Positions 1 through 64,000 of a stretch of DNA of 64,000 nt are shown piece by piece. The notes beneath the pieces are model-generated. The model was not told where the DNA came from. It made no database searches and was given only the letters and a program-made list of their open reading frames with translations. Made by a program: the position numbers and the translations under genes. The stretch spans positions 124,001-188,000 of the forward strand of contig CAMPDV010000458.1 in NCBI GenBank assembly GCA_946699065.1, given 5' to 3'. The stretch comes from Loxodes magnus (Eukaryota; Ciliophora; Karyorelictea; Loxodida; Loxodidae). Each line of letters begins with the position of its first letter. Position 1 is the stretch's first letter.

Positions 1-2690
1 GTCTTCTCCTCTTTAGTTTCCTAAAATTTATTTTTTAAACTGTAATATTTATTAAGGACGTGAAAGCTATGAAAAATGCATGCTATTTAAATAATCTAAA
101 TATAAAAACTTACTAGTACTAGGATAGCAAGGAAGGAGTTTAAGCCAGAATAAAAATCAGAAGCAGTAAAGTGATAAAGTTGTAACATAACAGCATTATT
201 AATCTGAAGAGCCTTAATACTATAAATCACTGAGACGTAGTTTCTGTTCGTAAATTTAGTTCTTATTTTCTCTATTTTAGTCTTACAACACTTGAGTCCA
301 ATAATCTTTAGTAGTAAATCAATAAAAAGTAAAATGAATAGCAGGAAAAGAGCTTCAAATAAATTGGATAATAGAGTGTAGCTTTAGTAATTAAGTTAAA
401 CATAAATTTATTTATCTATTTTCAATTAGTTGGAATTTAGATTTAAATCAATAAAATTATTATTATTTAATCCATTCTGTTTCTAATCATTATCAACATT
501 AGTATAATAGTAAGCGTTAAGAACTTCAGGTCGTTATACATCAACATATGCATTCATAAAAATGAGTTGAGTTATAAAAATAGCTTATAAAAATTTAGGA
601 GTACTTGCTGAATACTTAGAGTTACTAAAAAGGCTAGTTAATAAAGAACTTAAGCTTACTAAAGAACTAGTGTAAACAAGAGCAGTAGATATATCAGAAG
701 AATTTTGCATAAAATCTTTTTCTGAGTTTGAAATTTAGAAGTCATCAAGACTCTTTTTTATATCCTTAAATTAATCTTATTTCTATTCCTCTTCTTAATT
801 TTAAGAATCAGTATTATTTTCATTCTTACCAGGTATCAAATTGTTCTATATGCATTCATTATTTGATAACGTAAAAGTTGGAAAGCACTCAGAACATTCT
901 ATCTTCTATGAAAGATTTCATGAACAAAACTAGCAGTGAGGAATTATTTCGCAAGATTAACAAGTTTTATTGATATTTATCTAGTCTTATTAGCATTCTT
1001 TAACACAAGAAGTTTCTTGAAAAAGAAAATAAGGATTGTAGCACTCTAAACATGCTCCTCTTTCAATATCGCAGAATTTACAGTTTTCGATCATTTATGA
1101 ACACTTTTGACAAATGGAGTTCTGAATATAGTAAGTTTTATTAGGACAACTCTCAATGCACATATTATCAAACAAAACATAAGGGTCCTAACATTTAAGA
1201 CACTCGGTATCGTTTATATTGCACATTTCACAATTACTTATACTCTAATTACATAGCTAACAACTTTAACTCTCTTCGTAATAAAGATTGCTTGGACAAT
1301 TTTAAACACACTTATTGCCGAATAAAAGTCAAGGTTCCAAGCATTTTGTGCAGATATCTCCATTTGAGTTACATTCCTAGCAATTTTCTAACTTATTTTC
1401 GCATTTTAGGCAAGTAGAATTTTCAATAAAAAACTTTTCGTTAGGACAGTTCTAGATGCACTAGTTTTCGAATAAGATAAAAGATTCTTAGCATTGAAAA
1501 CACAATGATCCATTTTAATTGCATCTTTAACAATTCTCCATTGAGGAATTACAGTTTAAGCAAATAAAATTTTCAACGTAAAAACTATCATTAGGGCAAC
1601 TTTAAATGCATTAATTTTAGAATAAAAGTAATGGCTATTAACACTTTGTACACAAAGTTCCAATTATATCACACGTTTCACAATTCTAGATTCGAGATTG
1701 GCATTTTAAGCAAGTTAAGTTATCTTGAAAAAATGTTTAATCTGGGCATTAGCTTACACACTAACTATTGTATAATAATCAAGGATTTTAACACTTAGAG
1801 CATATAGTTCCTTGTTAATTGCACTCTTCACAATTTAAAATGGTTTCATTACAAAACTCGCATTATTTATTATTGTCTTAGTCTTATTATGTTATATGAC
1901 ATGTACTATTACATACTTATTCTACTGATAACTTTAAATTGCATATGCATGTATCTGCCTATAAATCTTTTGGGGAATAGCATTGGATGCAATTATTAGA
2001 ATTAATTCCAAAACATTTGAAGCATTAGGAGTTACAAGTAATAGAACTTTATTATAGAAAGCCTTGATCAGACTAATCTAAAATTAATTTAAAGCAAATT
2101 ATATCAAATATTTAATTCTTATAATATCTTAATGAATAAGTAGTCCCAGTAAAACTCCAAACATTAATATAGCTTCCTTAATTTATTATAGTAATCGAAG
2201 TAAAAGGCAATAGTTACCCAAAAGATTCTGATAGAGTCTAAAACTAGTTATTTATCTTTTAATGAGTTGCCGCAGCTAAAAAGCTTCCTTGAGTATTAAT
2301 TGCACATCCAAAAAATACTCAAATATCACTAACAAACATCATATCTAATTTGAAGGAAGTAAAACCTCCAATATATTAAATTATTTTGAAAGTAGTTTTC
2401 TAATTTTTTTAATCTTAGGTCAAACCAAATTCTAGAAAACTCGAAACACCATCATGAAATTAAAGGAAAATACCATGATTCTTTACTTGGTTACTGGAGT
2501 TAAATTTTAACCAGGCTGTAACGCTAAATTAAAGTCCCTGTGGATCTTAGCCATACTCAGAAAAAGTTTTAGAAGGCAACGAGTTAGTATCTCTTTAAGT
2601 TGGAACATTTGGATCAAGTATATCAAAAAATGCTAGCTAAGGTGAAACTTAAGAGATAAGGAAATAAAAAATAATTAAAGAGATTGACAT
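1..2690 (-). CDS. G1: Cys-rich CxxC-repeat membrane protein, C-terminus cut by window edge
   Basis: Start ATG is the complement of 2688-2690, chosen because the same signal-peptide start (MSI/MSVSLII) opens all six copies. With TAA/TAG as Gln the frame runs to position 1; by comparison with G3 about 710 nt of 3' coding sequence lie outside the window. Order: signal peptide, laminin-G/concanavalin-like domain (TAWLKF and FFGCAINTQG motifs), about seven CxxC units, then start of a multi-pass membrane domain. Total length differs from G3 and G6 by multiples of three, so the frame is kept. In-frame TGA occurs at 2321-2319, 1331-1329 and elsewhere, at positions that are Trp (TGG) in paralogues. 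Probably a cell-surface protein; no ligand or function can be assigned. Same sequence as G4, about 36.7 kb away. Confidence 0.8.
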
Positions 2691-11290: not shown

Positions 11291-14200
11291 ATGTCAATCT
11301 CTTTAATTATTTTTTATTTCCTTATCTCTTAAGTTTCACCTTAGCTAGCATTTTTTGATATACTTGATCCAAATGTTCCAACTTAAAGAGATACTAACTC
11401 GTTGCCTTCTAAAACTTTTTCTTAATATGGCTAAGATCCCCAAGGACTTTAATTTAGCGTTACAGCCTGGTTAAAATTTAGCTCCAGTAAACAAGTAATG
11501 AATTATGGTATTTTCCTTTAATTTCATGATGGTGTTTCGAATTTTCTGGAATTCGGATTGACCTAAGATTAAACAAATTAGCAAACTACTTTCAAAATAA
11601 TTTAAAACATTTTAATTTATGATATAAAATCATTAACCATCTTCTTTTTTAGTGATATCTGGGTATTTTTTGGATGTGCAATTAATACTTAAGGAAACTT
11701 TTTAGCTGTTGCAACTCATTCAAAGATAAATAACTAGTTTTAGATTCTATCAGAATCTTTTGGGTAATTATTGCCTTTTACTTTAAGTACTATAATAAAT
11801 TAAGGAAGCAATGTTTGATCTTGGAGTTTTACTGGGACTACTTATTCTTTAAGATATTATAAGAATTAATATTTAGGCATTGTCGACTTTCAGTATATTT
11901 TAGACTAGTCTGATTAAGGCTTTCTATAATAAATTTCTATTACTTGTAACTCCTAATGCTTCAAATGTTTTGGAATTAATTCTAATAATTGCATCCAATG
12001 CTATTCATCAGGAGATTTTTCAGCAGATACATGCGTATGCAACTTAAAGTTATCAGTAGAATAAGTATGTGAGAATATTTGTCCTATAACATAATAAGAC
12101 TAAGACAATAATAAATAATGCGAGTTTTGTAATAAAACCATTTTAAATTGTGAAGAGTGCAATTAACAAGGAACTATATGCTCTAAGTGTTAAAATCCTT
12201 GATTATTATACAATAGTTAGTGTGTAGAGAAATGCCCAAACGAAACATATTTTTAAGATAATATAACTTGCTTAAAATGCCAATCTCGAATCTAGAATTG
12301 TGAAACGTGTGATATAACTGGGATTTTGTGTACAAAGTGTTAACAGCCATTACTTTTATTCTAAAATTAATGCGTTTAAAGTTGCTCCAACGATAGCTTT
12401 TATGTTGAGAATTTTATTTGCTTAAACTGTAATTCCTCGATAGAAAACTGCTAAAGATGCAATTTAAATGGATCATAGTGTTTTCAATGCTAAGAATCTT
12501 TTATCTTATTCGAAAACTAGTGTATCTAGAACTGTCCTAACGAAAAGTTTTTTATTGAAAATTCTACTTGTCAAAAATGCGAAAATAAGTTAGAAAATTG
12601 CTAGGAATGCAATTCAAACGGAGATAATTGCACAAAATGTTTGGAGCCTTGACTTTTATTCGGCAATAAATGTGTTAAAAATTGTCCAAGCAATCTTTAT
12701 TATGAAGAGAGTTAAAGTTGCTAACTATGTAATTAGAGTATAAGTAATTGTGAAATGTGCAATATAAATGGTACTGAGTGTATTAAATGTTAAAACCCTT
12801 ATGTTTTGTTTGATAATATGTGCATAGAAAGTTGTCCTAATAAAACATACTATATTCAGAACTCCATTTGTCAAAAGTGTTCACAAAAGATCGAAAACTG
12901 CAAATTTTGCGATATCGAAAGAGGAGCATGTTTAGAGTGCTACGATCTTTATTTTCTTTTTCAAGAAACTTCTTGTGTTAGCAAATGCTAATAAGACTAG
13001 ATAAATATCAATAAAACTTGCTAGTCTTGCGAAATAATTCCTCACTGTTAGTTTTGTTCATGAAATCTTTCATAGTCAATAGAATGCTCTTAGTGCTTTC
13101 CAAATTTTACATTATCAAATAATGAATGCATTGAGAAAAATTTAGAGAGTCATTAGAAACCTGAAAATAATGAAAATCTTACTGACTCTGAAAAAAGATT
13201 TGCTGAATTAACAGCAAATTTTGCAAAATATAGCTAATTCACAGCATTTGCATCAGAAAGGTTATTAATTGCAATTACTTTAGAGCAATTTAATTACTTT
13301 TAAGCTTTTTGGTGCGTAGCTTTCATAACTCAAATGATTATGCTTAATGCATATATAAATGTCCCTCGTCCAGAAAATTTAAATAACTATTACTTTCAAA
13401 ATTTTAACTTGAAAATACCCTTTGGACTAAATACGAATTTTTTGGATATTAAATGAACAAGCTTACCAGTAGAAAATCAAATCTGAAGAAAACTTTAATA
13501 TGAAAGTTATGCTTTCATAGCCAATGCATTGAATGCTTCTATTGTCCTTATTTTCTCCATCCTTTTTAATATTTTGTTCTGAGTGTTAAAATCCTGTTTC
13601 AAAAACATAGCCATCTTTAATAAACTTTACAATTCATTTCACTATGAAACTGTAATAAATTTCTACTTTGGACAGAGCATATGTTTGAGTTTCGCTATTT
13701 TTATTCAGATTTATTATTTAGACTTCAGCTCTATATATGAAACTATAAATATAATGCTTGCATTCATTTTTATGGTAATTTATCATGCAGATAATTTAAA
13801 TATTATTTATAATTTTAAGCTTTAGAGGAGTTTATACATTTTATAAACTCTAAAAGTCAGAGTAAGAGATAGCAAAGAACACTGAAAGAATATCTAGTAT
13901 AAGCAAAAAATATAGCATCTTCTTCCAAGATTTTTAGCCAAATAAAATAGCTATTTATTATATTCTTTTCTTAGTAAGACGTTTTATCTTAGCATGCTTC
14001 CTCATAGTTTTATTCGAATATCCTGAGGCACAAATAGCTATTATAAATTCACTATGCGTTCTCTAGATTTTGTTTCTACTTTTTTACAAACCTTATTAAA
14101 ACCCTAAGAGGAACTATTTCGAGTGCGTAGTGGAAGTGTATCTAATAATTCTATACATGACTAACTGCTATTTCATATAGTTAGAAAATAATAGAAGATT

Positions 14201-14834
14201 AGACTAAGTCTGAGATGATCAAGCAGTCTGATTTGGATAGTTTGTCATGTACTTCTCTAGTTGCTTCATTTTCATCGTTACACTGTGTCTGCTTGTTGTT
14301 AATATTAGAAATTTCCTCTAGAGGAATAAAAAGAAAAATAAAATATAAGACACAAATCAACTAAATACATTAGGGTTGATGATAGAGTAAATATAACCTT
14401 AGCAGTAGCCTAACAAACAGAATATTTCATAAATTTTTGATGAAACCTTAATAGATTTTTAATCTAATGCTTTAAAGGTTCGAAAAAAAAATGCAAAAGT
14501 AGCAAAGGGATATCGCTTTAAAAATAAAAACAAAAGCAGTAAGCAACCAGGAAAAAATGAATTTCAAAAGGATTTTTAATAGACAGAAAGAAACTAAGGA
14601 TTTACTTAAGAGAGGTCTGAAAGAGAAATGTAAGATTACTAAAGTGAAAAGCAGAGATAAAAAGATAAAGCTGACTAAAGAGAAAATAAAATTCGTAAAT
14701 AGCATAAAAGGCATGAGAGAAAAAACCACAAAATTGCTAGTTCAGGAGAAATTCTATAACAAAATTAATATTTTACATAGTTTAAAGCTATTATTAAAAA
14801 TAATTTCATTAATTTATTTAATTTACTCAAATGA
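11291..14834 (+). CDS. G2: Cys-rich CxxC-repeat membrane protein, membrane domain type B
   Basis: ATG 11291 opens a signal peptide (MSISLIIFYFLISQ...). A laminin-G/concanavalin-like region follows (residues about 25-200), then Cys-rich units (about 217-611) of the form CxxC-x6-CxxC-...-CxxC-xxP-x-LLF-x4-C-x3-CPN. The membrane domain has hydrophobic segments near 13240-13360, 13515-13580, 13660-13790, 13955-14010, 14035-14090, 14125-14180 and 14235-14310, then a basic Gln/Lys-rich tail to the TGA at 14832-14834. One frame holds from 11291 to 13942; a +1 shift at 13943 (AAA-TAA-A) is needed to continue. In-frame TGA at 11816, 12650, 13061 and 14211, among others; TGG at 11660 and 11822. Probably a surface receptor-like or adhesion protein; ligand unknown. 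Confidence 0.8.
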
Positions 14835-15649: not shown

Positions 15650-15723
15650 CAATGAGACACAATCCTGCCATGTCCTTGGACCTCCAGCAAGTATTAAAGA
15701 TTACGAGTATTCTTAAATTATAT

Positions 15724-15838: not shown

Positions 15839-15841
15839 TAA

Positions 15842-17820: not shown

Positions 17821-18140
17821 TTAAATAGGGTGGAAAGTCCTTTCCTTCGAATGCTGCTTGGAGGTCCAGCAAGGCAACAAAAAATGAGCGCGGACGGAGG
17901 ATAAATCGGAAGAAGAGAAACTAATAACAAGAAAAGGAAGATGTGACAAGCTGGAGAACTCTGAATGCCAGGAGAAAATTTTCTTCATCATAGGTCGGGG
18001 AAATGTACCCGTAATCGCATATTGCATCCTATTCTTTGGAAGGAAAAATTATTGGGGCATACTGCAGGAAGAGGAAATAAGGTAAGAGAGAAAAGAGAGA
18101 CCTATAAAAAAAATGTTCGACATTAAATAAAATTAATTTA
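17821..18140 (+). repeat. G+C-richer repeated element, diverged relative of the hairpin element
   Basis: Contains CTTCATCATAGGTCGGGGAA (17967 on), GTACCCGTAATCG and TCCTATTCTTTGG, matching the order of motifs in 15438-15649, and is likewise followed by the GC-rich hairpin. One frame is open for about 110 codons when TAA/TAG are Gln, but with only TGA as stop this is weak evidence. Not called as a gene. Confidence 0.5.
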
Positions 18141-18141
18141 A

Positions 18142-18175
18142 AGAGCTGAGCACCAACGAGTGTGCTACGCGCTCT
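18142..18175. repeat. GC-rich hairpin, copy 2
   Basis: AGAGC...GCTCT with inner GTGC-like pairing. Differs from copy 1 in the loop and in one stem base (GAG for GCG). Confidence 0.65.
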
Positions 18176-19849
18176 ACAATCGAATTTATTTATTTATTAT
18201 TATTTTATTTTCACAAAAAAAGTAATATTTCTTATTAAATTTAATTTAAGCTTAAAAGCCTTTATTAATTAATAATAGATTAAATCATTGCAATTTAATT
18301 TAAAATAAATCGCTAAAATAGAAAATTCACTAAATATATTTCAAATTTAATTAAATCTTAATATTAATATAAGCTTTAAGGATATAAATAATGAGTAAGT
18401 TAACTTAAAAATAAAAATTATAAATAGCTTTATTTTATTATTCTTTTAGCCATGATAAATTATTTGTCTAATCTAATACCATTTTCTAATTATTATCTTC
18501 ACTTTTTCTTAAAATTTTCTAAAGAAAAACTATTTTTTTAATTTTAGACATAAAAAGTTTTAAGTTTATAAATCTCAAAAAAGAAAAATTAAATAATAAA
18601 TCTATTTAATGGTAAATTTGATAATTAAGATTCAGTTCAAAAAAGAAAAATTAAAATGAACGTAATTATAGTAATTATATAAGATTTAAATAAGAAATGT
18701 AATTTTATCCTAGTTCAATCTAAACTTTTAAATTAAATACTAAATAAAAGTTTAAAATCATTTTTTTTAAAGCTAAATTAAAATTTTCTTACTATGCTTA
18801 AATTATTTTTTATTTTTCACAAGATAAATGTAAGCAATCCAGATTTTAAAATAAATAAAATTATTTAAATTACTTATGAAAGTGATATTGGTAATTATTA
18901 TAAATTTTGCTTATTATATGAAGAATATAAAAGTGTGATTTGAGTAACCTAATAAAACTTTTTTTTAATTTAGATATAAACAAAATCTAGAAAAATATAG
19001 ATAATTTGACCTTCATAATAGAAATCCATGTTAGATTGCATGCTAACTTTTATATTTATTTTATCTAAAGTTTTAAGACATAGCTTTTCATTATTCTCTG
19101 TTTAGAAATAAAATACTAAATTAATAATAATTTTAAATATGTAATAGCTATCTATGTATTTAAGTTATTTCTTCTTTTATCTAAATATTTATTAATTATA
19201 TTTAAGAAATAAACTTGAAATATTTTAATATGAGAACCTAAATTAAAATAAAGAGAAATAAGAGGAATAATTAATTTTTAAACTAATTTGAAAACAAAAA
19301 ATAATAAAATTATCCATATGCTTATATATTAGATTAAAGAACACTATAATAAATTAACTAATTTATTAAGCATTCATAAATTCTTTATACATCTATTTAA
19401 GAAAAATATTTAAATAAACATATTATAAAAGGAAATTATAGGAAACAGCTATAATAATTATTTAAAACTACTTTATTTAATTTAGCTTTTATTTATATTC
19501 AATTTAATAAAAGATAAACTAATAGAAGGGAACTAAATATAAATAATCAGTCATTACTAAAATATAAAAGTTAAATTAAATAATTATAGAAACCTTTTTC
19601 AACTATACTTTACTAGTGAAAATTAAGTTAATAGACATTTTTATATCACTAAAGAAATAAAATTTAAATTATGATAATTGTTATAGAAATATATAAATGT
19701 ATAAGAATAGGTTAGATAATCTTTTCTAAAATATAAAAGATTATATAATTTATAAGTATAAATTAAGATATGAAGTACTAAAATAAATTATTTCATTAAG
19801 TTTATAAAAATTATCTAAAGCTATTTAATTAAATATAAAATTGATATAT
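18176..19849. other. A+T-rich spacer
   Basis: The first part (to about 18950) is related, inverted, to 25250-25700 and to 34450-34900, and all of it to 55060-56760. No gene seen. Confidence 0.5.
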
Positions 19850-25300: not shown

Positions 25301-26774
25301 ATTTTGTAATACTTTTATTTAGGATTTATTTTTAAGGTTCAATTTGAACTGGAATAAACGTCAATTTTTTAACTAAATCTTATAGAATTACTAAAATTTA
25401 GTTTATTTAAAATTTTTATTTTGCTGAGCTATATCTTATTTAGATTTAATTTTTGCTTTTTTTAGAATTTTAGATATAGCTTTTATGACTAAAAGGTTTA
25501 AACATTTTTTGGTTTTAGAAAATTATATGAAAAGTGAAGATAATAATTAGCAAAATGCTATTAGATTGGATAATAATTTAGCATGCATTGTAAGAATAAT
25601 AAAAAAGCTATTTATCAAATTTATTTTTAAGTTAACTTACACATTATTTTATATCCTTCAACTTAAAGTTATTAAGTCATTTATTATTTATATATAATTA
25701 GATTCGAAATATGTTTAAGCGGTATTTTCAATTAAATAAGTATTAATTTTAAGATAAAATTTAAATGATTTATCTATTACTTATGGAAGTAAATATTAAA
25801 AGCTTTAGTTTTATTTATAAAGGAAATGCTAATTTTACCTTTTTTTAATTTAAAGGATATTATTATAAACCTTCTTTTTGTTGTTAGTTAAAAGCTTTTA
25901 TAATTTTAAATAAATAAGATTTAGAATATCACATCTTTGATAACTAATTAATTATAAATAACCTAACTAAATTTAGATTTAGTAAAAATAGTTAAATTAA
26001 GTTAAATTTAAAGATATTAATTAATAAGCAAAGCCTTAGGTTATTATTATTAGTGTTCGCTCTATAAGAATATTTGTTTTATTTATTTGGGTAAAAAATA
26101 AATTGATGCTTTTTAATCAAATAAAATTATCTTAATATAGGTTACTCTATAACTAAAGTATTATACTCTAATAAAAATTTATTTCTAAGAGTGAAAGGTG
26201 AAATTAAAAATAAAGCTTAAAACAAAAATAGGGTAATTATATCTAAAAATTATAAAAGAACCATAGAAAAATTAGAAGTACACTTCAATTTCAGTACTTA
26301 ATGTTTTATCCTTTTTAAGTAAAATTAATAATAAATTTATAAAAATAAAATGATGAAAAACTACATGATTAATAAAAGAGAACTAAGAGAAAATTAAAGA
26401 ATAACTAAATATATAGTTATATAGAAAAATAATTGAAAACATCACATTTATAAATATCTTTAATTGGTTATTCTAATTATAAATAATTGAGAATAAAAGT
26501 ATAAATAAAGAAAGCTACTAAAAGAAAATTAAAAATAGCTTTGTTTATTTACTAAGTTTATAACTTAGATTAAAAATAAAATAATTATAAAATATCTATA
26601 TTAATTTATTTATAGCCAAAATTTCTTAATACAAGTTACTTTTACTAATTTAAACTAAGTCTAAGAAAGAGATATTAATAACTACATCTTTTATATTAAA
26701 ATTATTTTATAGTTTCTATAATAAAAAATAACGAAAAATTATAAAATTCAAGGAAAATAGTTTAAGAGTTCATT
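22367..26774. other. Long A+T-rich spacer, 3' side of G3
   Basis: 22400-24780 shows no gene and little similarity elsewhere. From about 24780 it parallels 33950-36002 (direct). 25383-26774 is the reverse complement of the spacer after G6 (62609-64000). Confidence 0.55.
24358..24373. repeat. Perfect 16-bp palindrome
   Basis: CTAGCTTTCAAGCTAG. Its inverted counterpart with flanking similarity is at 32126-32141. Confidence 0.6.
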
Positions 26775-29700
26775 TCATGTTTATTTTTGGCTAATATGCT
26801 TTGATTTACGACTTCTTCACTTTTTATTCTTGATCTGTCTTTTGTGATGTTTAGGCACTTTTTATTCTTCTAGAATTTCATGAATCTAATAAATTATATC
26901 CAAATCTTCTCGATGACTTTATATAACTGTTGTGTTATGCATGTTCACTTTTTGTTTTGAGTCATCTTTATTGAATAAATCTTGCTGATGTAATTACTCA
27001 TTCTTCTATTACTACTACATTTTCTCTTATCTCGCTTTTTTCCAAGATTTATACAAATCTATAAAAGAAAATATAAGTGATATTACTAAAGCTATTAATG
27101 TGAAAAGACAACATGTTATTGTAATAACTACTCCTAATGTTTACGCATCTTTATTTCAATCAGTATAAGTGCTATAACTGTTAGCTTCGAAATAGAAGTT
27201 AAAGAAATAAATAAAAATGAGTACTATTTCTCCACTTATCTCAACAGCATACTACAAAATATTTTCAAAAGGTTTGAAATAAACTATATAAAAGAACCAA
27301 ACTAAACAATGAATAAGGTATAATATGATTTAAGCTACTTATATCTCTACTAATATAATAGCTGCAAAAGAAACAAAAAGTCTCCTTACTAGAAAGAAAG
27401 CTTAGTAAAGTGTTTGCATCTTGTTATCCTATTTCTTTTAGTCAAAGTAAACTATATACTTTTCTTTAATCTATGCTATTTATTTCTCTGTCTTCTCCTC
27501 TTTAGTTTCCTAAAATTTATTTTTTAAACTGTAATATTTATTAAGGACGTGAAAGCTATGAAAAATGCATGCTATTTAAATAATCTAAATATAAAAACTT
27601 ACTAGTACTAGGATAGCAAGGAAGGAGTTTAAGCCAGAATAAAAATCAGAAACAGTAAAGTGATAAAGTTGTAACATAACAGCATTATTAATCTGAAGAG
27701 CCTTAATACTATAAATCACTGAGACGTAGTTTCTGTTCGTAAATTTAGTTCTTATTTTCTATATTTTAGTCTTACAACACTTGAGTCCAATAATCTTGAG
27801 TAGTAAGTCAATAAAAAGTAAAATGAATAGCAGGAAAAGAACTTCAAATAAATTGGATAGTAGAGTGTAGCTTTAGTAATTAAGTTAAATATAAACTTAT
27901 TTATCTATTTTCAATTAGTTGGAATTTAGATTTAAATCAATAAAATTATTATTACTTAGTCCATTCTGTTTCTAATCATTATCAATATTAGTATAATAGT
28001 AAGCGTTAAGAACTTCAGGTCGTTATACATCAACATATGCATTCATAAAAATGAGTTGAGTTATAAAAATAGCTTATAAAAATTTAGGAGTACTTGCTGA
28101 ATACTTAGAGTTACTAAAAAGGATAGTTAATAAAGAACTTAAACTTACTAAAGCACTAGTGTAAACAAGAGCAGTAGATATATCAGAAGAATTTTGTATA
28201 AAATCTTTTTCTGAGTTTGAAATTTAGAAGTCATTAAGGTTCTTTTTTATATCCTTAAATTAATCTTAGTTCTATTCCTCTTCTTAATTTTAAGAGTCAG
28301 TATTATTTTCATTGTTACCAGATTTTGAATTATTCTCTTATTTTTTCTCAATGCATTCATTATTTGATAATGTAAAATTTATCTAGCACTAAGAGCATTC
28401 TATCTTCTATGAAAGATTTCATGAGCAAAACTAGCAGTAAGGAATTATTTCGCAAGATTAACAAGTTTTATTGATATTTATCTAGTCTTATTAGCATTTG
28501 CTAACACAAGAAGTTTCTTGAAAAAGAAAATAAGGATTGTAGCACTCTAAACATGCTCCTCTTTCAATATCGCAGAATTTACAGTTTTCGATTTTTTGTG
28601 GACACTTTTGACAAATGGAGTTCTGAATATAGTAAGTTTGATTAGGACAACTCTCAATGCACATATTATCAAACAAAACATAAGGGTCCTAACATTTAAT
28701 ACACTCAGTACCATTTATATTGCACTATTCACAATTGCTTATACTCTAATTACATAGTTAGCAGCTTTTACTCTCTTCATAATAAAGATTGATTGGACAA
28801 TTTTGAACACATTTATTGCCGAATAAAAGCCAAGGTTTCAAACATTTTGTGCAATTATCTCCGTTTGAATTGCATTCTTAGCAATTTTCTATTTTATTTT
28901 CGCATTTTAGGCAAGTAGAATTTTCAATAAAAAACGTTTCGTTAGGACAGTTCTAGATACACTAGTTTTCGAATAAGATAAAAGATTCTTAGCATTGTAA
29001 GCACATTGATCCGTTTAAATTGCATCTTTAACAATTCTTTATTGAGGAATTACAGCTTAAGCAAATAAAATTCTCAACATAAAAACTATCGTCAGGGCAA
29101 TTTTAAACGCATTAATTCTAGAATAAGAATCATGGATACTAACACTTTGTACACAAAGTTCCAATTATATCACACGTTTCACAATTCTAGATTCTAGATT
29201 CGCATTTTAAGCAAGTTAAGTTATCTTGAAAATATGTTTAATCTGGGCATTAGCTTACACACTAACTATTGTATAATAATCAAGGATTTTAACACTTAGA
29301 GCATATAGTTCCTTGATAATTACACTCTTCGCAATTTAAAATGATTTTATTACAAAACTCGCATTATTTATTATTGTCTTAGTCTTATTATGTTATAGGA
29401 CATGTACTATTGCATACTTATTCTACTGATAACTTTAAGTTGCATATACATGAATCTGCTGAAAAATCTCATGGGGAATAGCATTGGATGCAATTATTAG
29501 AATTAATTCCATAACATTTGAAGCATTAGGAGTTACAAGTAATAGAATTTGCGGATATAAAACCCGAGTCAGACTAGTCTAAAATGTACTGAAAGTCGAC
29601 AATGCCTAAATATTAATTCTTATAATATCTTAAAGAATAAATAGTCCCAGTAAAACTCCAAGATTAAGATATACTTCCTTAATTTATTTCAGTACTTGAA

Positions 29701-30191
29701 GTAAAAGGTAATAGTTACCCAAAGGATTCTGATAGAGTCTAAAACTAGTTATTTATCTTTGAATGAGTTGCAACAGCTAAAAAGCTTCCTTGAGTATTAA
29801 TTGCACATCCAAAGAATAGTCAAATATCACTAACAAACATCATATCTAACTAGAAAGAAGTAACATTTCTAATATTTTGATTTATTTTGAAAGCAGTTTT
29901 CTAATTTGTTTAGTTTTATAGCAAACCGAATTCAGTATAATTCTTGGCACCATCATAAAATTGAATGAAATTACCCCAAGAAGCCACTTATTTACTAGAG
30001 TTAAATTTTAACCAGGCTGTAAAGCTAAATTAAAGTCCCTGCGGATCTTAGCCATATTAAGAAAAAGTTTTAGATGCCAATGAGTTAGTATCTCTTTAAG
30101 TTGGAACATTTGAATCAAGTATATCGAAAAATGTAAATTAAGCTGAGATTCTAGAGATAAGGAAATAAAGGATAATTAAAGAGACTGACAT
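26775..30191 (-). CDS. G3: Cys-rich CxxC-repeat membrane protein, membrane domain type A
   Basis: ATG is the complement of 30189-30191; the frame runs 1138 codons to the TGA at 26777-26775 if internal TGA codons are read through. Signal peptide MSVSLIILYFLIS, laminin-G/concanavalin-like domain, seven or so CxxC units, then the type-A multi-pass domain shared with G6 and a Gln/Lys-rich cytoplasmic-looking tail. TGG at 29978-29976 and 28832-28830 stands where other copies have TGA; TGA at 29822-29820 stands where G2 has TGG. One TGA (26819-26817) matches Ser TCA in G6, so it is not at a Trp column. Length is 3 nt less than G6, showing frame conservation despite many substitutions. Confidence 0.8.
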
Positions 30192-36002: not shown

Positions 36003-39000
36003 TCATGTTTATTTTTGGCTATTATGCTTTGATTTACGACTTCTTCACTTTTTATTCTTGATCTGTCTTTTGTGATGTTTAGGCACTTTTTATTCTTCTA
36101 GAATTTCATGAATCTAATAAATTATATCCAAATCTTCTCGATGACTTTATATAACTGTTGTGTTATGCATGTTCACTTTTTGTTTTGAGTCATCTTTATT
36201 GAATAAATCTTGCTGATGTAATTACTCATTCTTCTATTACTACTACATTTTCTCTTATCTCCCTTTTTTCCAAGATTTATACAAATCTATAAAAGAAAAT
36301 ATAAGTGATATTACTAAAGCTATTAATGTGAAAAGACAACATGTTATTGTGGTCACTACTCCTAATGTTTGCGCATCTGTATTTCAATCAGTATAAGTGC
36401 TATGACTGTTAGCTTCGAAATAGAAGTTAAAGAAATAAATAAAAATGAGTACCATTTCTCCACTTATCTCAACAGCATACTACAAAATATTTTCAAAAGG
36501 TTTGAAATAAACTATATAAAAGAACCAAACTAAACAATGAATAAGGTATAATATGATTTAAGCTACTTATATCTCTACTAATATAATAGCTGCAAAAGAA
36601 ACAAAAAGTCTCCTTACTAGAAAGAAAGTTTAGTAAAGTGTTTGCATCTTGTTATCCTATTTCTTTTAATCAAAGTAAACTATATACTTTTCTTTAATCT
36701 ATGCTATTTATTTCTCTGTCTTCTCCTCTTTAGTTTCCTAAAATTTATTTTTTAAACTTTAATATTTATTAAGGACTTGAAAGCTATGAAAAATGCAGGC
36801 TATTTAAATAACCTAAATATAAAAACTTACTAGTACTAGGATAGCAAGGAAGGAGTTTAAGCCAGAATAAAAATCAGAAACAGTAAAGTGATAAAGTTGT
36901 AACATAACAGCATTATTAATCTGAAGAGCCTTAATACTATAAATCACTGAGACGTAGTTTCTGTTCGTAAATTTAGTTCTTATTTTCTCTATTTTAGTCT
37001 TACAACACTTGAGTCCAATAATCTTGAGTAGTAAATCTATAAAAAGCAAAATGAATAGCAGGAAGAGAGATTCAAATAAATTGGATAATAGAGTGTAGCT
37101 TTAGTAATTAAGTTAAACATAAATTTATTTATCTATTTTCAATTAGTTGGAATTTAGATTTAAACCAATAAAATTATTATTACTTAGTCCATTTTATTTC
37201 TTATCATTATCAAAATTAGTATAATAGTAAGCATTAAGAACTTCAGGTCGTTATATATCAACATATGCATTCATAAGAATGAGTTGAGTTGTAAAAATAG
37301 CTTATAAAAATTTAGGAGTACTTGCTGAATACTTAGAGTTACTAAAAAAGCTAGTTAATAAAGAACTTAAGCTTACTAAAGCACTAGTGTAAACAAGAGC
37401 AGTAGATATATCAGAAGAATTTTGTATAAAATCTTTTTCTGAGTTTGAAATTTTGAATTCTTCAAGACTCTTTTTTATATCCTTAAATTAATCTTTTTTC
37501 TATTCCTCTTCTTAATTTTAAGAATCAGTATTATTTTCATTCTTACCAGGTATCAAATTGTTCTATATGCATTCATTATTTGATAACGTAAAAGTTGTAA
37601 AGCACTCAGAACATTCTATCTTCTATGAAAGATTTCATGAACAAAACTAGCAGTGAGGAATTATTTCGCAAGATTAACAAGTTTTATTGATATTTATCTA
37701 GTCTTATTAGCATTTGCTAACACAAGAAGTTTCTTGAAAAAGAAAATAAGGATCGTAGCACTCTAAACATACTCTTCTTTCAATATCACAAAATTTACAG
37801 TTTTCGATCATTTATGAACACTTTTGACAAATGGAGTTCTGAACATAGTAAGTTTGATTAGGACAACTCTCAATGCACATATTATCAAACAAAACATAAG
37901 GGTCCTAACATTTAAGACACTCGGTACCGTTTATATTGCACATTTCACAATTACTTATACTCTAATTACATAGTTAGCAACTTTAACTCTCTTCGTAATA
38001 AAGATTGCTTGGACAATTTTAAACACACTTATTGCCGAATAAAAGTCAAGGTTCCAAGCATTTTGTGCAGATATCTCCATTTGAGTTACATTCCTAGCAA
38101 TTTTCTAACTTATTTTCGCATTTTAGGCAAGTAGAATTTTCAATAAAAAACTTTTCGTTAGGACAGTTCTAGATGCACTAGTTTTCGAATAAGATAAAAG
38201 ATTCTTAGCATTGAAAACACAATGATCCATTTTAATTGCATCTTTAACAATTCTCCATTGAGGAATTACAGTTTAAGCAAATAGAATTCCCAACGTAAAA
38301 ACTATCATTAGGGCAACTTTAAATGCATTAATTTAGAATAAAAGTAATGGCTATTAACACTTTGTACACAAAGTTCCAATTATATCACACGTTTCACAAT
38401 TCTAGATTCTAGATTCGCATTTTAAGCAAGTTAAGTTATCTTGAAAAAATGTTTAATCTGGGCATTAGCTTACACACTAACTATTGTATAATAATCAAGG
38501 ATTTTAACACTTAGAGCATATAGTTCCTTGTTAATTGCACTCTTCACAATTTAAAATGGTTTCATTACAAAACTCGCATTATTTATTATTGTCTTAGTCT
38601 TATTATGTTATAGGACATGTACTATTACATACTTATTCTACTGATAACTTTAAGTTGCATATGCATGTATCTGCTGAAAGATCTAATGGGGAATAGCATT
38701 GGATACAATTATTAGAATTAATTCCAAAACATTTGAAGCATTAGGAGTTACAAGTAATAGAACTTTATTATAGAAAGCCTTGATCAGACTAGTCTAAAAT
38801 TAATTTAAAGCAAATTATATCAAATATTTAATTCTTATAATATCTTAAAGAATAAGTAGTCCCAGTAAAACTCCAAACATTAATATAGCTTCCTTAATTT
38901 ATTATAGTAATCGAAGTAAAAGGCAATAGTTACCCAAAAGATTCTGATAGAGTCTAAAACTAGTTATTTATCTTTTAATGAGTTGCCGCAGCTAAAAAGC

Positions 39001-39406
39001 TTCCTTGAGTATTAATTGCACATCCAAAAAATACTCAAATATCACTAACAAACATCATATCTAATTCGAAGGAAGTAAAACCTCCAATATATTAAATTAT
39101 TTTGAAAGTAGTTTTCTAATTTTTTTAATCTTAGGTCAAACCAAATTCTAGAAAACTCGAAACACCATCATGAAATTAAAGGAAAATACCATGATTCTTT
39201 ACTTGGTTACTGGAGTTAAATTTTAACCAGGCTGTAACGCTAAATTAAAGTCCCTGTGTATCTTAGCCATACTCAGAAAAAGTTTTAGAAGGCAACGAGT
39301 TAGTATCTCTTTAAGTTGGAACATTTGGATCAAGTATATCAAAAAATGCTAGCTAAGGTGAAACTTAAGAGATAAGGAAATAAAAAATAATTAAAGAGAT
39401 TGACAT
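36003..39406 (-). pseudogene. G4: Cys-rich membrane protein, 1-nt deletion
   Basis: Complete counterpart of G1 (start complement of 39404-39406, stop TGA 36005-36003) with the type-A membrane domain. Compared with G1 it lacks one T near 38332, inside the third CxxC unit, so the frame breaks: total length is 3404 nt, not a multiple of three. The rest is near-identical to G1. Either a recent pseudogene or a sequencing error in a T-run; the deletion is a different kind of lesion from the shared in-frame TGA codons. Part of the 36.7-kb repeated unit. Confidence 0.7.
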
Positions 39407-48017: not shown

Positions 48018-51000
48018 ATGTCAATCTCTTTAATTATTTTTTATTTCCTTATCTCTTAAGTTTCACCTTAGCTAGCATTTTTTGATATACTTGATCCAAA
48101 TGTTCCAACTTAAAGAGATACTAACTCATTGCCTTCTAAAACTTTTTCTGAGTATGGCTAAGATCCACAGGGACTTTAATTTAGCGTTACAGCCTGGTTA
48201 AAATTTAGCTCCAGTAAACAAGTAATGAATTATGGTATTTTCCTTTAATTTCATGATGGTGTTTCGAATTTTCTGGAATTCGGATTGACCTAAGATTAAA
48301 CAAATTAGCAAACTTCTTTCAAAATAATCTAAAGCATTACAATTGGAGATATAAAGTAATTAACCATCTCCTTTGTTAGTGATATCTGAGTATTTTTTGG
48401 ATGTGCAATTAATACTCAAGGAAGCTTTTTTGCTGTTACAACTCATTCAAAGATAAATAACTAGTTTTAGACTCTATCAGAATCCTTTGGGTAATTATTG
48501 CCTTTTACTTCAAGTACTGAAATAAATTAAGGAAGTATTAATAAGGCTTGAAGTTTTACTGGGACTACTTATTCTTTAAGATATTATAAGAATTAATATT
48601 TAGGCATTGTCGACTTTCAGTATATTTTAGACTAGTCTGATTAAGGCTTTCTATAATAAATTTCTATTACTTGTAACTCCTAATGCTTCAAATGTTATGG
48701 AATTAATTCTAATAATTGCATCCAATGCTATTCATCAGGAGATTTTTCAGCAGATACATGCGTATGCAACTTAAAGTTATCAGTAGAATAAGTATGTGAG
48801 AATATTTGTCCTATAACATAATAAGACTAAGACAATAATAAATAATGCGAGTTTTGTAATAAAACCATTTTAAATTGTGAAGAGTGCAATTTACAAGGAA
48901 CTATATGCTCTAAGTGTTAAAATCCTTGATTGTTATACAATAGTTAGTGTGTAGAGAAATGCCCAAACGAAACATATTTTTAAGATAACATAACTTGCTT
49001 AAAATGTCAATCTCGAATCTAGAATTGTGAAACGTGTGATATAACTGGGATTTTGTGTACAAAGTGTTAATAGCCATTACTTTTATTCTAAAATTAATGC
49101 GTTTAAAGTTGCTCCAACGATAGCTTTTATGTTGAGAATTTTATTTGCTTAAACTGTAATTCCTCGATAGAAAACTGCTAAAGATGCAATTTAAATGGAT
49201 CATAGTGTTTTCAATGCTAAGAATCTTTTATCTTATTCGAAAACTAGTGTATCTAGAACTGTCCTAACGAAAAGTTTTTTATTGAAAATTCTACTTGTCA
49301 AAAATGCGAAAATAAGTTAGAAAATTGCTAGGAATGCAATTCAAACGGAGATATCTGCACAAAATGTTTGGAGCCTTGACTTTTATTCGGCAATAAATGT
49401 GTTTAGAATTGTTCAAGCAATCTTTATTATGAAGAGAGTTAAAGTTGCTAACTATGTAATTAGAGTATAAGTAATTGTGAAATGTGCAATATAAATGGAA
49501 CTGGGTGTATTAAATGTTAGGACCCTTATGTTTTGTTTGATAATATGTGCATTGAGAGTTGTCCTAATAAAGCTTACTATATTCAGAACTCCATTTGTCA
49601 AAAGTGTCCACAAAAAATCGAAAACTGTAAATTTTGCGATATTGAAAAAGAACTTTTAAATGGAGATAATTGCATAAAATGCTTGGAACCTTGACTTCTA
49701 TTTGACAATAAATGTGTTAAAAATTGTCCAAGCAATCTTTATTATGAAGAGAGTTAAAGTTGCTAACTATGTAATTAGAGTATAAGTAATTGTGAAATGT
49801 GCAATATAAATGGTACTGAGTGTATTAAATGTTAAAACCCTTATGTTTTGTTTGATAATATGTGCATAGAAAGTTGTCCTAATAAAACATACTATATTCA
49901 GAACTCCATTTGTCAAAAGTGTTCACAAAAGATCGAAAACTGCAAATTTTGCGATATCGAAAGAGGAGCATGTTTAGAGTGCTACGATCTTTATTTTCTT
50001 TTTCAAGAAACTTCTTGTGTTAGCAAATGCTAATAAGACTAGATAAATATCAATAAAACTTGCTAATCTTGCGAAATAATTACTCACTGTTAGTTTTGCT
50101 CAAGAAATCTTTCGTAGTCAATAGAATGCTCTTAGTGCTTTCCAAATTTTACATTATCAAATAATGAATGCATTGAGAAAAATTTAGAGAGTCATTAGAA
50201 ACCTGAAAATAATGAAAATCTTACTGACTCTGAAAAAAGATTTGCTGAATTAACAGCAAATTTTGCAAAATATAGCTAATTCACAGCATTTGCATCAGAA
50301 AGGTTATTAATTGCAATTACTTTAGAGCAATTTAATTACTTTTAAGCTTTTTGGTGCGTAGCTTTCATAACTCAAATGATTATGCTAAATGCATATATAA
50401 ATGTCCCTCGTCCAGAAAATTTAAATAACTATTACTTTCAAAATTTTAACTTGAAAATACCCTTTGGACTAAATACGAATTTTTTGGATATTAAATGAAC
50501 AAGCTTACCAGTAGAAAATCAAGTCTGAAGAAAACTTTAATATGAAAGTTATGCTTTCATAGCCAATGCATTGAATGCTTCTATTGTCCTTATTTTCTCC
50601 ATCCTTTTTAATATTTTGTTCTGAGTGTTAAAATCCTGTTTCAAAAACATAGCCATCTTTAATAAACTTTACAATTCATTTCACTATGAAACTGTAATAA
50701 ATTTCTACTTTGGACAGAGCATATGTTTGAGTTTCGCTATTTTTATTCAGATTTATTATTTAGACTTCAGCTCTATATATGAAACTGTAAATATAATGCT
50801 TGCATTCATTTTTATGGTAATTTATCATGCAGATAATTTAAATATTATTTATAATTTTAAGCTTTAGAGGAGTTTATACATTTTATAAACTCTAAAAGTC
50901 AGAGTAAGAGATAGCAAAGAACACTGAAAGAATATCTAGTATAAGCAAAAAATATAGCATCTTCTTCCAAGATTTTTAGCCAAATAAAATAGCTATTTAT

Positions 51001-51876
51001 TATATTCTTTTCTTAGTAAGACGTTTTATCTTAGCATGCTTCCTCATAGTTTTATTCGAATATCCTGAGGCACAAATAGCTATTATAAATTCACTATGCG
51101 TTCTCTAGATTTTGTTTCTACTTTTTTGCAAACCTTATTAAAACCCTAAGAGGAACTATTTCGAGTGCGTAGTGGAAGTGTATCTAATAATATTATACAT
51201 GACTAACTTCTATTTCATATAGTTAGAAAATAATAGAAGATTAGAATAAATCTGGGATGATAAAGCAGTCTGATTTGGATAGTTTGTCATGTACTTCTCT
51301 AGTTGCTTCATTTTCATCGCTACACTGTGTCTGCTTGTTGTTAATATTAGAAATTTCCTCTAGAGGAATAAAAAGAAAAATAAAATATAAGATACAAAGC
51401 AATTAAGTACATTAGGGTTGATGATGGAGTAAATATAACCTTAGCAGTAGCCTAACAAACAGAATATTTCATAAATTTTTGATGAAACCATAATAGATTT
51501 TTAATCCAATGCTTTAAAGGTTAGATAAAAAGATTCAAAAGTAGCAAAGGCATACCGCTTAAAAAAGAAAGACAAAAGCAGTAATCAACCAGGAAAAAAT
51601 GAATTTCAAAAGGATTTTTAATAGACAGAAAGAAACTAAGGATTTACTTAAGAGAGGTCTGAAAGAGAAATGTAAGATTACTAAAGTGAAAAGCAGAGAT
51701 AAAAAGATAAAGCTGACTAAAGAGAAAATAAAATTCGTAAATAGCATAAAAGGCATGAGAGAAAAAACCACAAAATTGCTAGTTCAGGAGAAATTCTATA
51801 GCAAAATTAATATTTTACATAGTTTAAAGCTATTATTAAAAATAATTTCATTAATTTATTTAATTTACTCAAATGA
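48018..51876 (+). CDS. G5: Cys-rich CxxC-repeat membrane protein, membrane domain type B, extra repeats
   Basis: ATG 48018; same design as G2. Compared with G2 it has 315 extra bases (105 codons, frame kept) at about 49520-49835, adding about two CxxC units. In-frame TGA at 48387 and 48549, where G2 has TGG, and at 49377 and 49692; AGA at 50103 where G2 has TGA; TGG at 51253 where G2 has TGA. One frame from 48018 to about 50984, then the same +1 shift as G2 (at 50985) and the same tail to TGA 51874-51876. Near-identical to G2 from about 49840 on, while the stretch around 48300-48560 is closer to G6, suggesting gene conversion. Confidence 0.8.
49520..49835 (+). repeat. In-frame expansion of CxxC units in G5
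   Basis: The segment repeats unit types already present; the join at about 49645-49665 (a KELLNGDNC-like run) fuses the middle of a late unit to the middle of an earlier one, as expected from unequal crossing-over. Its second Pro-Trp-Leu-Leu-like site reads TGA where the closest G6 unit reads TGG. Confidence 0.7.
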
Positions 51877-59188: not shown

Positions 59189-62100
59189 ATGTCAGTCTCT
59201 TTAATTATCCTTTATTTCCTTATCTCTAGAATCTCAGCTTAATTAACATTTTTTGATATACTTGATCCAAATGTTCCAACTTAAAGAGATACTAACTCAT
59301 TGCCATCTAAAACTTTTTCTGAATATGGCTAAGATCCCCAAGGAATTTAATTTAGCGTTACAGCCTGGTTAAAATTTAGCTCCAGTAACCAAGTAACGAA
59401 TTGAGGCATTTTCCTTTAATTTTATCTTAATACTAATGCTTAGTATTTTGAATTCGGTTTGACTTAAGATTAAACAAATTAGCAAACTTCTTTCAAAATA
59501 ATCCAAAGCATTACAATTGGAGATATAAAGTAATTAACCATCTCCTTTGTTAGTGATATTTGAGTATTTTTTGGATGTGCAATTAATACTCAAGGAAGCT
59601 TTTTTGCTGTTACAACTCATTCAAAGATAAATAACTAGTTTTAGACTCTATCAGAATCCTTTGGGAAACTATTGCTTTTTACTTCAAGTTTTGTAATAAA
59701 TTAAGGAAGTATATCTAAATTTTGGAGTTTTACTGGGACTACTTATTCATTAAGATATTATAAGAATTAATATTTAGTCATTGTCGACTTTCAGTACATT
59801 TTAGACTAGTCTGACTCGGGTTTTATATCCGCAAATTCTATTACTTGTAACTCCTAATGCTTCAAATGTTATGGAATTAATTCTAATAATTGTATCCAAT
59901 GCTATTACCCATTAGATCTTTCAGCAGATACATGCATATGCAACTTAAAGTTATCAGTAGAATAAGTATGTAATAGTACATGTCCTATAACATAATAAGA
60001 CTAAGACAATAATAAATAATGCGAGTTTTGTAATAAAACCATTTTAAATTGTGAAGAGTGCAATTAACAAGGAACTATATGCTCTAAGTGTTAAAATCCT
60101 TGATTATTATAAAATAGTTAGTGTGTAGAGAAATGCCCAAATGAAACATATTTTTAAGATAGCTTAACTTGCTTAAAATGCGAATCTAGAATCTAGAATT
60201 GTGAAACGTGTGATATAACTGGAACTTTGTGTACAAAGTGTTAGTATCCATGATTCTTATTCTAGAATTAATGCGTTTAAAGTTGCCCTAGCGAAAGCTT
60301 TTATGTTGAGAATTTTATTTGCTTAAACTGTAATTCCTCAATAAAGAATTGCTAAAGATGCAATTTAAATGGATCATTGTGTTTACAATGCAAAGAATCT
60401 TTTATCTTATTCGAAAACTAGTGTATCTAGAACTGTCCTAACGAAACGTTTTTTATTGAAAATTCTACTTGCCTAAAATGCGAAAATAAGTTAGAAAATT
60501 GCTCAGAATGTAGTTCAAACGGAGGTAATTGCACAAAATGCTTGGAACCTTGGCTTCTATTTGACAAGAAATGTGTTCAAAATTGTCCAAGCAATCTTTA
60601 TTATGAAGAGAGTTAAAGTTGCTAACTATGTAATTAGAGTATAAGTGATTGTGAAATGTGCAATATAAACGGTACTGAGTGTCTTAAATGTTAGGACCCT
60701 TATGTTTTGTTTGATAATATATGCAGTGAAAGTTGTCCTAATCAAACTTACTATATTCAGAACTCCATTTGTCAAAAGTGTTCATAAATGATCGAAAACT
60801 GTAAATTCTGCGATATTGAAAGAAGAGTATGTTTAGAATGCTACGATCCTTATTTTCTTTTTCAAGAAACTTCTTGTGTTAGCAAATGCTAATAAGACTA
60901 GATAAATATCAATAAAACTTGTTAATCTTGCGAAATAATTCCTTACTGCTAGTTTTGCTCATGAAATCTTTCATAGAAGATAGAATGCTCTTAGTGCTAG
61001 ATAAATTTTACATTATCAAATAATGAATGCATTGAGAAAAAATAAGAGAATAATTCGAAATCTGGTAACAATGAAAATAATACTGACTCTTAAAATTAAG
61101 AAGAAGAATAGAACTAAGATTAATTTAAGGATATAAAAAAGAACCTTAATGACTTCTAAATTTCAAACTCAGAAAAAGATTTTATACAAAATTCTTCTGA
61201 TATATCTACTGCTCTTGTTTACACTAGTGCTTTAGTAAGCTTAAGTTCTTTATTAATTAGCCTTTTTAGTAACTCTAAGTATTCAGCAAGTACTCCTAAA
61301 TTTTTATAAGCTATTTTTATAACTCAACTCATTCTTATGAATGCATATGTTGATGTATAACGACCTGAAGTTCTTAATGCTTACTATTATACTAATTTTG
61401 ATAGTGATTAGAAAGCAAATGGACTAAGTAATAATAATTTTATTGGTTTAAATCTAAATTCCAACTAATTGAAAATAGATAAATAAATTTATGTTTAACT
61501 TAATTACTAAAGCTACACTCTATTATCCAATTTATTTGAAGCTCTTTTCCTACTATTCATTTTACTTTTTATTGATTTATTACTCAAGATTATTGGACTC
61601 AAGTGTTGCAAGACTAAAATAGAGAAAATAAGAACTAAATTTACGAACAGAAACTACGTCTCAGTGATTTATAGTATTAAGGCTCTTCAGATTAATAATG
61701 CTGTTATGTTACAACTTTATCACTTTACTGTTTCTGATTTTTATTCTGGCTTAAACTCCTTCCTTGCTATCCTAGTACTAGTAAGTTTTTATATTTAGAT
61801 TATTTAAATAGCATGCATTTTTCATAGCTTTCACGTCCTTAATAAATATTACAGTTTAAAAAATAAATTTTAGGAAACTAATGAGGAGAAGACAGAGAAA
61901 TAAATAGCATAGATTAAAGAAAAGTATATAGTTTACTTTGACTAAAAGAAATAGGATAACAAGATGCAAACACTTTACTAAGCTTTCTTTCTAGTAAGGA
62001 GACTTTTTGTTTCTTTTGCAGCTATTATATTAGTAGAGATATAAGTAGCTTAAATCATATTATACCTTATTCATTGTTTAGTTTGGTTCTTTTATATAGT

Positions 62101-62608
62101 TTATTTCAAACCTTTTGAAAATATTTTGTAGTATGCTGTTGAGATAAGTGGAGAAATGGTACTCATTTTTATTTATTTCTTTAACTTCTATTTCGAAGCT
62201 AACAGTCATAGCACTTATACTGATTGAAATACAGATGCGTAAACATTAGGAGTAGTGACCACAATAACATGTTGTCTTTTCACATTAATAGCTTTAGTAA
62301 TATCACTTATATTTTCTTTTATAGATTTATATAAATCTTGGAAAAAAGTGAGATAAGAGAAAATGTAGTAGCAATAGAAGAATAAGTAGTTACAATAGCA
62401 AGATTTAATCAACTAAGATGACTCGAAACAAAAAGTGAACATGCATAACACAACAGTTATATAAAGTCAACGAGAAGGAGTGGATAAATTTTGTTTTGCT
62501 TATGGAGATATAGAAGAGAAAAAAGTGCCTAAACATCACAAAAGACAGATCAAGAATAGAAAGTCAAGAAGTCATAAATCCGAGCATATTAGCCAAAAAT
62601 AAACATGA
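59189..62608 (+). CDS. G6: Cys-rich CxxC-repeat membrane protein, membrane domain type A (most complete copy)
   Basis: ATG 59189 to TGA 62606-62608, 1139 codons in one frame. Signal peptide; laminin-G/concanavalin-like region (residues about 25-200, with VTAWLKFSSSN and FFGCAINTQG); Cys-rich units at residues about 220-615, each with CxxC pairs and a P-[WLY]-LLF motif before a Cys; then about eight hydrophobic segments near residues 671, 705, 778-805, 840-870, 935-955, 957-975, 991-1006 and 1020-1050; then a Gln-rich basic tail. Internal TGA at 59402, 59561, 60101, 60251, 62225 and at a CS[TGA]NLS site near 60963; TGG at 59723 and 60551. The TGA at 62225 precedes a clear membrane helix also present in G3 and G4, so the protein probably does not end there. 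No enzyme motif seen. Confidence 0.85.
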
Positions 62609-64000
62609 AATGAACTCTTAAACTATTTTCCTTTAATTTTATAATTTTTCATTATTTTTTATTATAGAAACTATAAAATAATTTTAATATAAAAGATGTA
62701 GTTATTAATATCTCTTTCTTAGACTTAGTTTAAATTAGTAAAAGTAACTTGTATTAAGAAATTTTGGCTATAAATAAATTAATATAGATATTTTATAATT
62801 ATTTTATTTTTAATCTAAGTTATAAACTTAGTAAATAAACAAAGCTATTTTTAATTTTCTTTTAGTAGCTTTCTTTATTTATACTTTTATTCTCAATTAT
62901 TTATAATTAGAATAACCAATTAAAGATATTTATAAATGTGATGTTTTCAATTATTTTTCTATATAACTATATATTTAGTTATTCTTTAATTTTATCTTAG
63001 TTCTCTTTTATTAATCATGTAGTTTTTCATCATTTTATTTTTATAAATTTATTATTAATTTTACTAAAAAAGGATAAAACATTAAGTACTGAAATTGAAG
63101 TGTACTTCTAATTTTTCTATGGTTCTTTTATAATTTTTAGATATAATTACCCTATTTTTGTTTTAAGCTTTATTTTTAATTTCACCTTTCACTCTTAGAA
63201 ATAAATTTTTATTAGAGTATAATACTTTAGTTATAGAGTAACCTATATTAAGATAATTTTATTTGATTAAAAAGCATCAATTTATTTTTTACCCAAATAA
63301 ATAAAACAAATATTCTTATAGAGCGAACACTAATAATAATAACCTAAGGCTTTGCTTATTAATTAATATCTTTAAATTTAACTTAATTTAACTATTTTTA
63401 CTAAATCTAAATTTAGTTAGGTTATTTATAATTAATTAGTTATCAAAGATGTGATATTCTAAATCTTATTTATTTAAAATTATAAAAGCTTTTAACTAAC
63501 AACAAAAAGAAGGTTTATAATAATATCCTTTAAATTAAAAAAAGGTAAAATTAGCATTTCCTTTATAAATAAAACTAAAGCTTTTAATATTTACTTCCAT
63601 AAGTAATAGATAAATCATTTAAATTTTATCTTAAAATTAATACTTATTTAATTGAAAATACCGCTTAAACATATTTCGAATCTAATTATATATAAATAAT
63701 AAATGACTTAATAACTTTAAGTTGAAGGATATAAAATAATGTGTAAGTTAACTTAAAAATAAATTTGATAAATAGCTTTTTTATTATTCTTACAATGCAT
63801 GCTAAATTATTATCCAATCTAATAGCATTTTGCTAATTATTATCTTCACTTTTCATATAATTTTCTAAAACCAAAAAATGTTTAAACCTTTTAGTCATAA
63901 AAGCTATATCTAAAATTCTAAAAAAAGCAAAAATTAAATCTAAATAAGATATAGCTCAGCAAAATAAAAATTTTAAATAAACTAAATTTTAGTAATTCTA
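62609..64000. repeat. Downstream spacer of G6
   Basis: Reverse complement of 25383-26774 (3' of G3), and related to 17040-17800 and 53930-54700. The last bases of the window match 25383 onward. No gene. Confidence 0.65.

Follow-up and report, generated by a model that had tools for sequence, protein, structure and literature searches.

UGA as tryptophan and as stop in genes of Loxodes magnus, in keeping with the published ambiguous karyorelict code

For the question of how the ribosome chooses between sense and stop, stop codons with a dual meaning offer some of the clearest tests in nature. In the Tetrahymena code (NCBI table 6), UAA and UAG encode glutamine, and UGA is the stop codon. For Loxodes magnus the code has been published (Seah et al., 2024, PMC11441545): in the portions of that paper drawn on here, the 706 Mbp MAC assembly is assigned NCBI table 27, and UGA is described as the only stop and, far away from the poly(A) tail, as tryptophan. 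The same source reports short 3' UTRs (mean 53, median 41 bp) and a depletion of coding UGA over the ~20 codons before the stop. Every one of the 64 codons can be sense in Parduczia sp. and Condylostoma magnum, where UGA is read as tryptophan upstream and as stop at gene ends; C. magnum is reported to lack an identifiable tRNA-Trp(UCA), and differs from the present case in stopping at UAA and UAG too (Swart et al., 2016, PMC4967479, in part). In Blastocrithidia (Kachale et al., 2023, as relayed in parts of PMC12153298 and PMC13092985), UGA also encodes tryptophan, and its readthrough has been linked to two features in combination, the eRF1 substitution Ser70Gly and a tRNA-Trp(CCA) whose anticodon stem has 4 bp (PMC12153298).

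The stretch of DNA analysed here (hereafter the window; 64,000 nucleotides, G000:C458:124001-188000 of an assembly of 705,730,643 bases) shares with the Tetrahymena code the reading of UAA and UAG as glutamine and of UGA as stop, but differs in that internal UGA is sense. Compared with the description of L. magnus in PMC11441545, it is alike in each feature considered, namely UAA and UAG as glutamine, UGA as both tryptophan and stop, and A+T-rich sequence after the stop. I conclude that the window almost certainly follows NCBI table 27, the ambiguous code of karyorelicts, where glutamine is encoded by UAA and UAG, and UGA means tryptophan upstream and stop near the mRNA end; this conclusion takes in a proposed mechanism in which a short-stem tRNA and an altered eRF1 would take part. 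An earlier note on this DNA had pointed to a Parduczia-like karyorelict, and was right to do so. UGA makes up 0.54% of codons in the Loxodes gene family described below (160 of 29,770 codons in 26 sequences), versus the 0.12% given for Parduczia in PMC4967479. The likeness to Blastocrithidia covers the 4-bp-stem tRNA-Trp(CCA), a change at eRF1 Ser70 and UGA as tryptophan; there, by the accounts cited above, the change is Ser70Gly, UAR encodes glutamate and UAA is the stop, whereas Loxodes here has Ser70Ala, UAR as glutamine and UGA as the stop.

Since the code is published and a short-stem tRNA-Trp has been reported in Loxodes (PMC13092985 and PMC12005148, in passages citing Swart et al.), the finding is classed as already known: there is no new code, and table 27 has been recovered from raw sequence. 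The words eRF1 and tRNA are absent from the main text of PMC11441545, and in the Loxodes eRF1 and tRNA literature searched, a scope beyond which Seah 2022 and Swart 2024 lie, I met no description of the eRF1 residues or of how large the arrays of short-stem tRNA-Trp genes are. These arrays, and an eRF1 with alanine at human Ser70 and Glu55, are concrete parts through which the mechanism can be tested in Loxodes. There is also a practical side: under table 6, a gene caller would break up each gene of the family, with its 4–9 internal TGA codons, into several pieces.

The family is represented by six copies in the window (Table 1). G6 is composed of cysteine-rich repeats followed by a hydrophobic C-terminal half, a composition suggesting a membrane protein with a cysteine-rich ectodomain. 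A Pfam search found Furin-like_2 repeats below the threshold, at 22.6 bits with TGA translated as tryptophan and 18.5 with TGA as cysteine (cut-off 28). G2 and G5 have a divergent C-terminal half in common. The assembly was searched with the G6 translation, and the best 40 of 3273 first-look candidates were scored, yielding 42 matches: 38 of the 40 loci gave a single match, and the other two were split into two matches each, a proportion of intact copies that is biased upward because only the best 40 candidates were scored. In all 30 paralogues fetched, the frame stays open from the first residue to residue 1119 or beyond (of 1139), and each possesses 4–9 internal TGA and 3–6 TGG codons. Removal of two duplicates left 28 distinct coding sequences for the alignment; two more (L016 and L030) were dropped for the pair counts, UGA frequency and omega.

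Table 1. Location of the paralogues, codon columns, tRNA arrays, eRF1 and actin genes. Positions without a contig are those of the window; codon columns refer to the alignment of 28 distinct paralogues.
Feature	Position	Strand	Description
G6	59189..62608	+	Intact paralogue, 1139 residues; ATG 59189, terminal TGA 62608
G1	1..2690	-	Paralogue truncated by window start; whole match G000:C458:123289-126690
G2	11291..14700	+	Paralogue, C-terminal half divergent; end approximate
G3 (= L018)	26775..30191	-	Intact paralogue; in-frame TGA at 26819, 14 codons before common stop
G4	36003..39406	-	Paralogue; frame break near 38330 relative to intact sisters
G5	48018..51500	+	Paralogue, internal repeat duplication; chimeric copy; end approximate
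G6 internal TGA, column 72	59402..59404	+	CGA 9, CAT 7, TGG 5, TGA 4, TAT 2, AGA 1
G6 internal TGA, column 125	59561..59563	+	TGA 25, TGG 3
G6 internal TGA, column 305	60101..60103	+	TGA 28/28
G6 internal TGA, column 355	60251..60253	+	TGA 17, TTA 8, AAA 2, TAA 1
G6 internal TGA, column 593	60962..60964	+	TGA 28/28; AGA in G5 (outside the 28)
G6 internal TGA, column 1015	62225..62227	+	TGA 27, TTA 1
G6 terminal TGA	62606..62608	+	Stop; 127 codons past last internal TGA
Column 455			TGG 22, TGA 6
Column 179			TGG 18, TGA 7, TGC 2, TAC 1
Column 242			TGA 15, TTA 8, CGA 3, GGA 2
Columns 60, 967, 1053			TGG 28/28
tRNA-Trp(CCA) array	G000:C67:482309-491371 (L058 in part)		At least 49 copies, ~187 bp apart
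tRNA-Trp(CCA) array	G000:C148:155450-170000 (L059, L062 in part)	1 on +, 48 on -	At least 49 copies, mostly ~241 bp apart
eRF1 paralogue	L032:1456-2766		Contig G000:C196; aligns along length with human eRF1
eRF1 paralogue	L033:1390-2766		Contig G000:C196; ~35 kb from L032
Actin	L064		TGA at Trp79
Actin	L066		TGA at Trp79, Trp86
Actin	L063		TGA at Trp79, Trp340, also places 41, 46 (Thr, Gly in matched chain)
Actin	L065		TGA at place of Tyr337

The claim that UGA encodes tryptophan alongside UAA and UAG as glutamine had been based on columns where one paralogue carries TGG and another TGA, and all 20 codon positions named with it, including those of a column that fitted less simply, hold the codon given. 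In the 28-sequence alignment, statistics were computed over the 1138 columns in which 20 or more sequences had a codon, with 240 sparser columns excluded. TGA occurs in 16 of these columns and TGG in seven, and four (72, 125, 179 and 455) hold both (hypergeometric P = 8.9e-7). TGA is thus present in 4/7 of the TGG columns, versus 2–8% of the columns with TTA, TCA, TAA, GGA, AGA, and TGT or TGC. The sharing between TGA and TGG is therefore not explained by codon nearness alone, given these low values for most other codons one step away from TGA; CGA columns also hold TGA in two of six cases. Over sequence pairs, TGG accounts for 306 of the 785 one-step codon differences to TGA, versus 123 of the 6039 codons that lie one step from it (26 sequences).

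Most TGA cells (153/170) lie in columns with a TGA or TGG majority. The remaining 17, found under another majority (TAT 6, CGA 4, TCA 3, TAA 2, AAA 1, TGT 1), count against a pure tryptophan reading, and may be private changes to tryptophan, or real stops in single copies. One of them sits in column 412 (TGT 25, TGC 2, TGA 1), so the observation that cysteine codons were not seen converted does not hold in the larger sample. At position 50103, G5, the copy whose repeat is duplicated and whose C-terminal half is divergent, has AGA, a codon one step away from TGA.

TGG to TGA is a single transition, in A+T-rich DNA, and the family is large and duplicated; G-to-A changes could thus have turned tryptophan codons into real stops in a decaying set of pseudogenes. 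The frame break in G4 and the two split loci fit such decay, and broken copies may be missed when the best 40 of 3273 candidates are scored. As G4 is broken, some copies may indeed be decaying, or the assembly may err there. Against decay of the family as a whole, 38 of the 40 scored loci give single matches, TGA is found in all 28 sequences at two columns and in 27 of 28 at a third, and a crude omega of 0.36 was obtained on 26 coding sequences, with equal rates assumed and pairs that are not independent (27,331 nonsynonymous and 19,081 synonymous pair counts from single-base differences; opportunity ratio 3.96). TGA at tryptophan sites of actin and kynurenine aminotransferase, described below, led me to reject decay, which I consider very improbable next to the reading of internal UGA as tryptophan.

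Actin gives 96 matches in the genome. The 43 best have near-equal scores (450–460 bits) and no TGA, while 25 of the 96, all lower-scoring, hold 1–4 TGA; abundant actin copies may avoid UGA. Four loci were chosen for fetching from these 25 on the basis of their TGA content. TGA is located at Trp79 in three of them, at Trp86 in one and at Trp340 in one, with residues numbered by alignment to 1dej for L063, and by eye through the flanking motif for L064, L065 and L066. Altogether, five of the eight internal TGA codons are at tryptophan sites, and three are at other places and count against the tryptophan reading. A kynurenine-aminotransferase-like frame, adjoining a Pelota gene (named by eye), contains two TGA codons: one aligns with a tryptophan of the TGWKLGW motif in KAT3, represented by two near-identical chains, and the other with a serine. 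In the eRF1 and actin genes, TAA and TAG are read through as sense, and the products align over nearly their full length with known proteins.

These genes, together with the TGA/TGG columns, bear out the reading of UGA as tryptophan and of UAA and UAG as sense codons, which the published code assigns to glutamine. It had also been proposed that single-copy conserved genes free of internal TGA would speak for a decaying family. On this point, the fetched actins and the kynurenine aminotransferase do hold TGA at tryptophan positions, but actin is multi-copy, and its 43 best matches out of 96, as well as both eRF1 genes, are without internal TGA.

UGA is the usual codon for selenocysteine, and the family is rich in cysteine, which raises the option that UGA is selenocysteine, or a recoding signal specific to these genes. 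In the paralogues, however, TGA exchanges with TGG, and a cysteine-majority column underlies only one of the 170 TGA cells; TGA also occupies tryptophan sites in unrelated genes. I regard this option as extremely improbable, well below decay.

At the ends of conserved genes, TGA was found at the expected C-terminus in every case read (4/4 fetched actins and 2/2 eRF1 genes). The actins finish with KC(F/Y) followed by TGA, as in a normal actin. With TGA at tryptophan sites within and TGA at the terminus, the same triplet is tryptophan inside the fetched actins and stop at their end. The reassignment of UGA therefore stands in an amended form, in which the codon has gained tryptophan and is still a stop. 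A code like that of Condylostoma (NCBI table 28), where UAA and UAG also serve as stops near mRNA ends, has in common with these data a dual UGA, and few gene ends were read; all six of those are TGA, though, and the text of PMC11441545 gives UGA as the sole stop of L. magnus, making table 28 a highly unlikely choice over table 27.

The ends of the 30 paralogues are no test of stop identity, because the script extended each to a TGA, and only their surroundings are considered here. The 60 nucleotides 3' of the nominal stop average 14% GC, versus 27% in the coding sequence (28 distinct copies). In 27 of the 30 paralogues, which are not independent, the 122 or more codons leading up to the nominal stop are free of TGA; the other three have one at 14 codons. 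This corresponds to column 1134, with TGA in 3/28 sequences including G3, and the tail of G4 likewise has an in-frame TGA at this 14-codon distance from the common stop. Following the published rule that a UGA near the mRNA end can stop, the TGA of column 1134 may itself be the stop. The description of L. magnus in PMC11441545 suggests that position relative to the 3' end would decide between sense and stop.

The earlier note had proposed a search for a tRNA-Trp with a UCA anticodon. The corresponding arm has no exact match in the genome, among the matches listed, and such a tRNA is probably not needed. With one mismatch the UCA pattern gives 127 matches, of which the 100 listed are the CCA genes and 27 are unlisted; a mitochondrial tRNA-Trp(UCA), or a UCA tRNA with a different arm, possibly lies outside this search. 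The arm pattern for tRNA-Trp with a CCA anticodon gives 133 matches, versus none for the reversed control. Among the 100 listed, 49 are on contig C67 and 49 on contig C148, in the arrays of Table 1, and two lie apart on C110. I read 44 of the 133 in full, and folded three arm types. The anticodon stem is 4 bp long in all 42 array genes read, which come in four sequence versions with common 4-bp arms and are followed by T runs. Both genes on C110, outside the arrays, have a 5-bp stem.

Other tRNA matches also occur at regular spacing, on contigs C103, C78 and C158 (63 of 42,786 first-look candidates scored), which weakens the case for arrays as a special feature of tRNA-Trp; they are not peculiar to it here. 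A pattern based on a vertebrate-like arm was discarded as uninformative, since its reversed control had more matches (46) than the pattern itself (39), and none of the 12 loci scanned with ARAGORN yielded a tRNA.

Two eRF1 paralogues were identified, both with a terminal TGA and zero internal TGA. L032 retains the GTS and NIKS motifs, and differs from human eRF1 at Glu55 (Ala), Thr58 (Arg), Ser60 (Gln), Ser70 (Ala) and Tyr125 (Phe); L033 has the same letters at these places, including alanine at human Ser70 and Glu55. RAQNIKS replaces TASNIKS in both paralogues. Glu55 and Ser70 are listed among the eRF1 recognition motifs in the part of PMC12153298 used here.

Taken from gene sequences and from the parallel with Blastocrithidia, the following mechanism is proposed. 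The tRNA-Trp(CCA) with a 4-bp stem is the likely decoder of UGA, which would then be read by this short-stem tRNA and not by one with a UCA anticodon. Recognition of UGA by eRF1 would be weakened by the alanines at human Ser70 and Glu55, and termination would be regained close to the short, A+T-rich 3' ends. A more specific version is offered tentatively, as one that may well prove wrong: the balance of sense and stop at UGA in Loxodes would be set by two classes of tRNA-Trp(CCA), a 4-bp, UGA-reading class amplified on two contigs to ~50 copies or more apiece and a rarer 5-bp, UGG-reading class, in concert with two eRF1 paralogues with alanine at human Ser70 and Glu55. The reassignment would then be carried by the gene dosage of a near-cognate tRNA and would need no new anticodon.

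Outside the family, a Pfam scan of the six frames of each of two stretches of the window (4000-8501 and 14100-18601) gave no match, and a codon-usage scan, trained mostly on the paralogue family, marked family members only. Duplicated blocks form a mosaic across the window: direct copies lie ~36.7 kb apart, and an inverted pair of 4455 nt has 97% identity (25383-29837 and 59546-64000).
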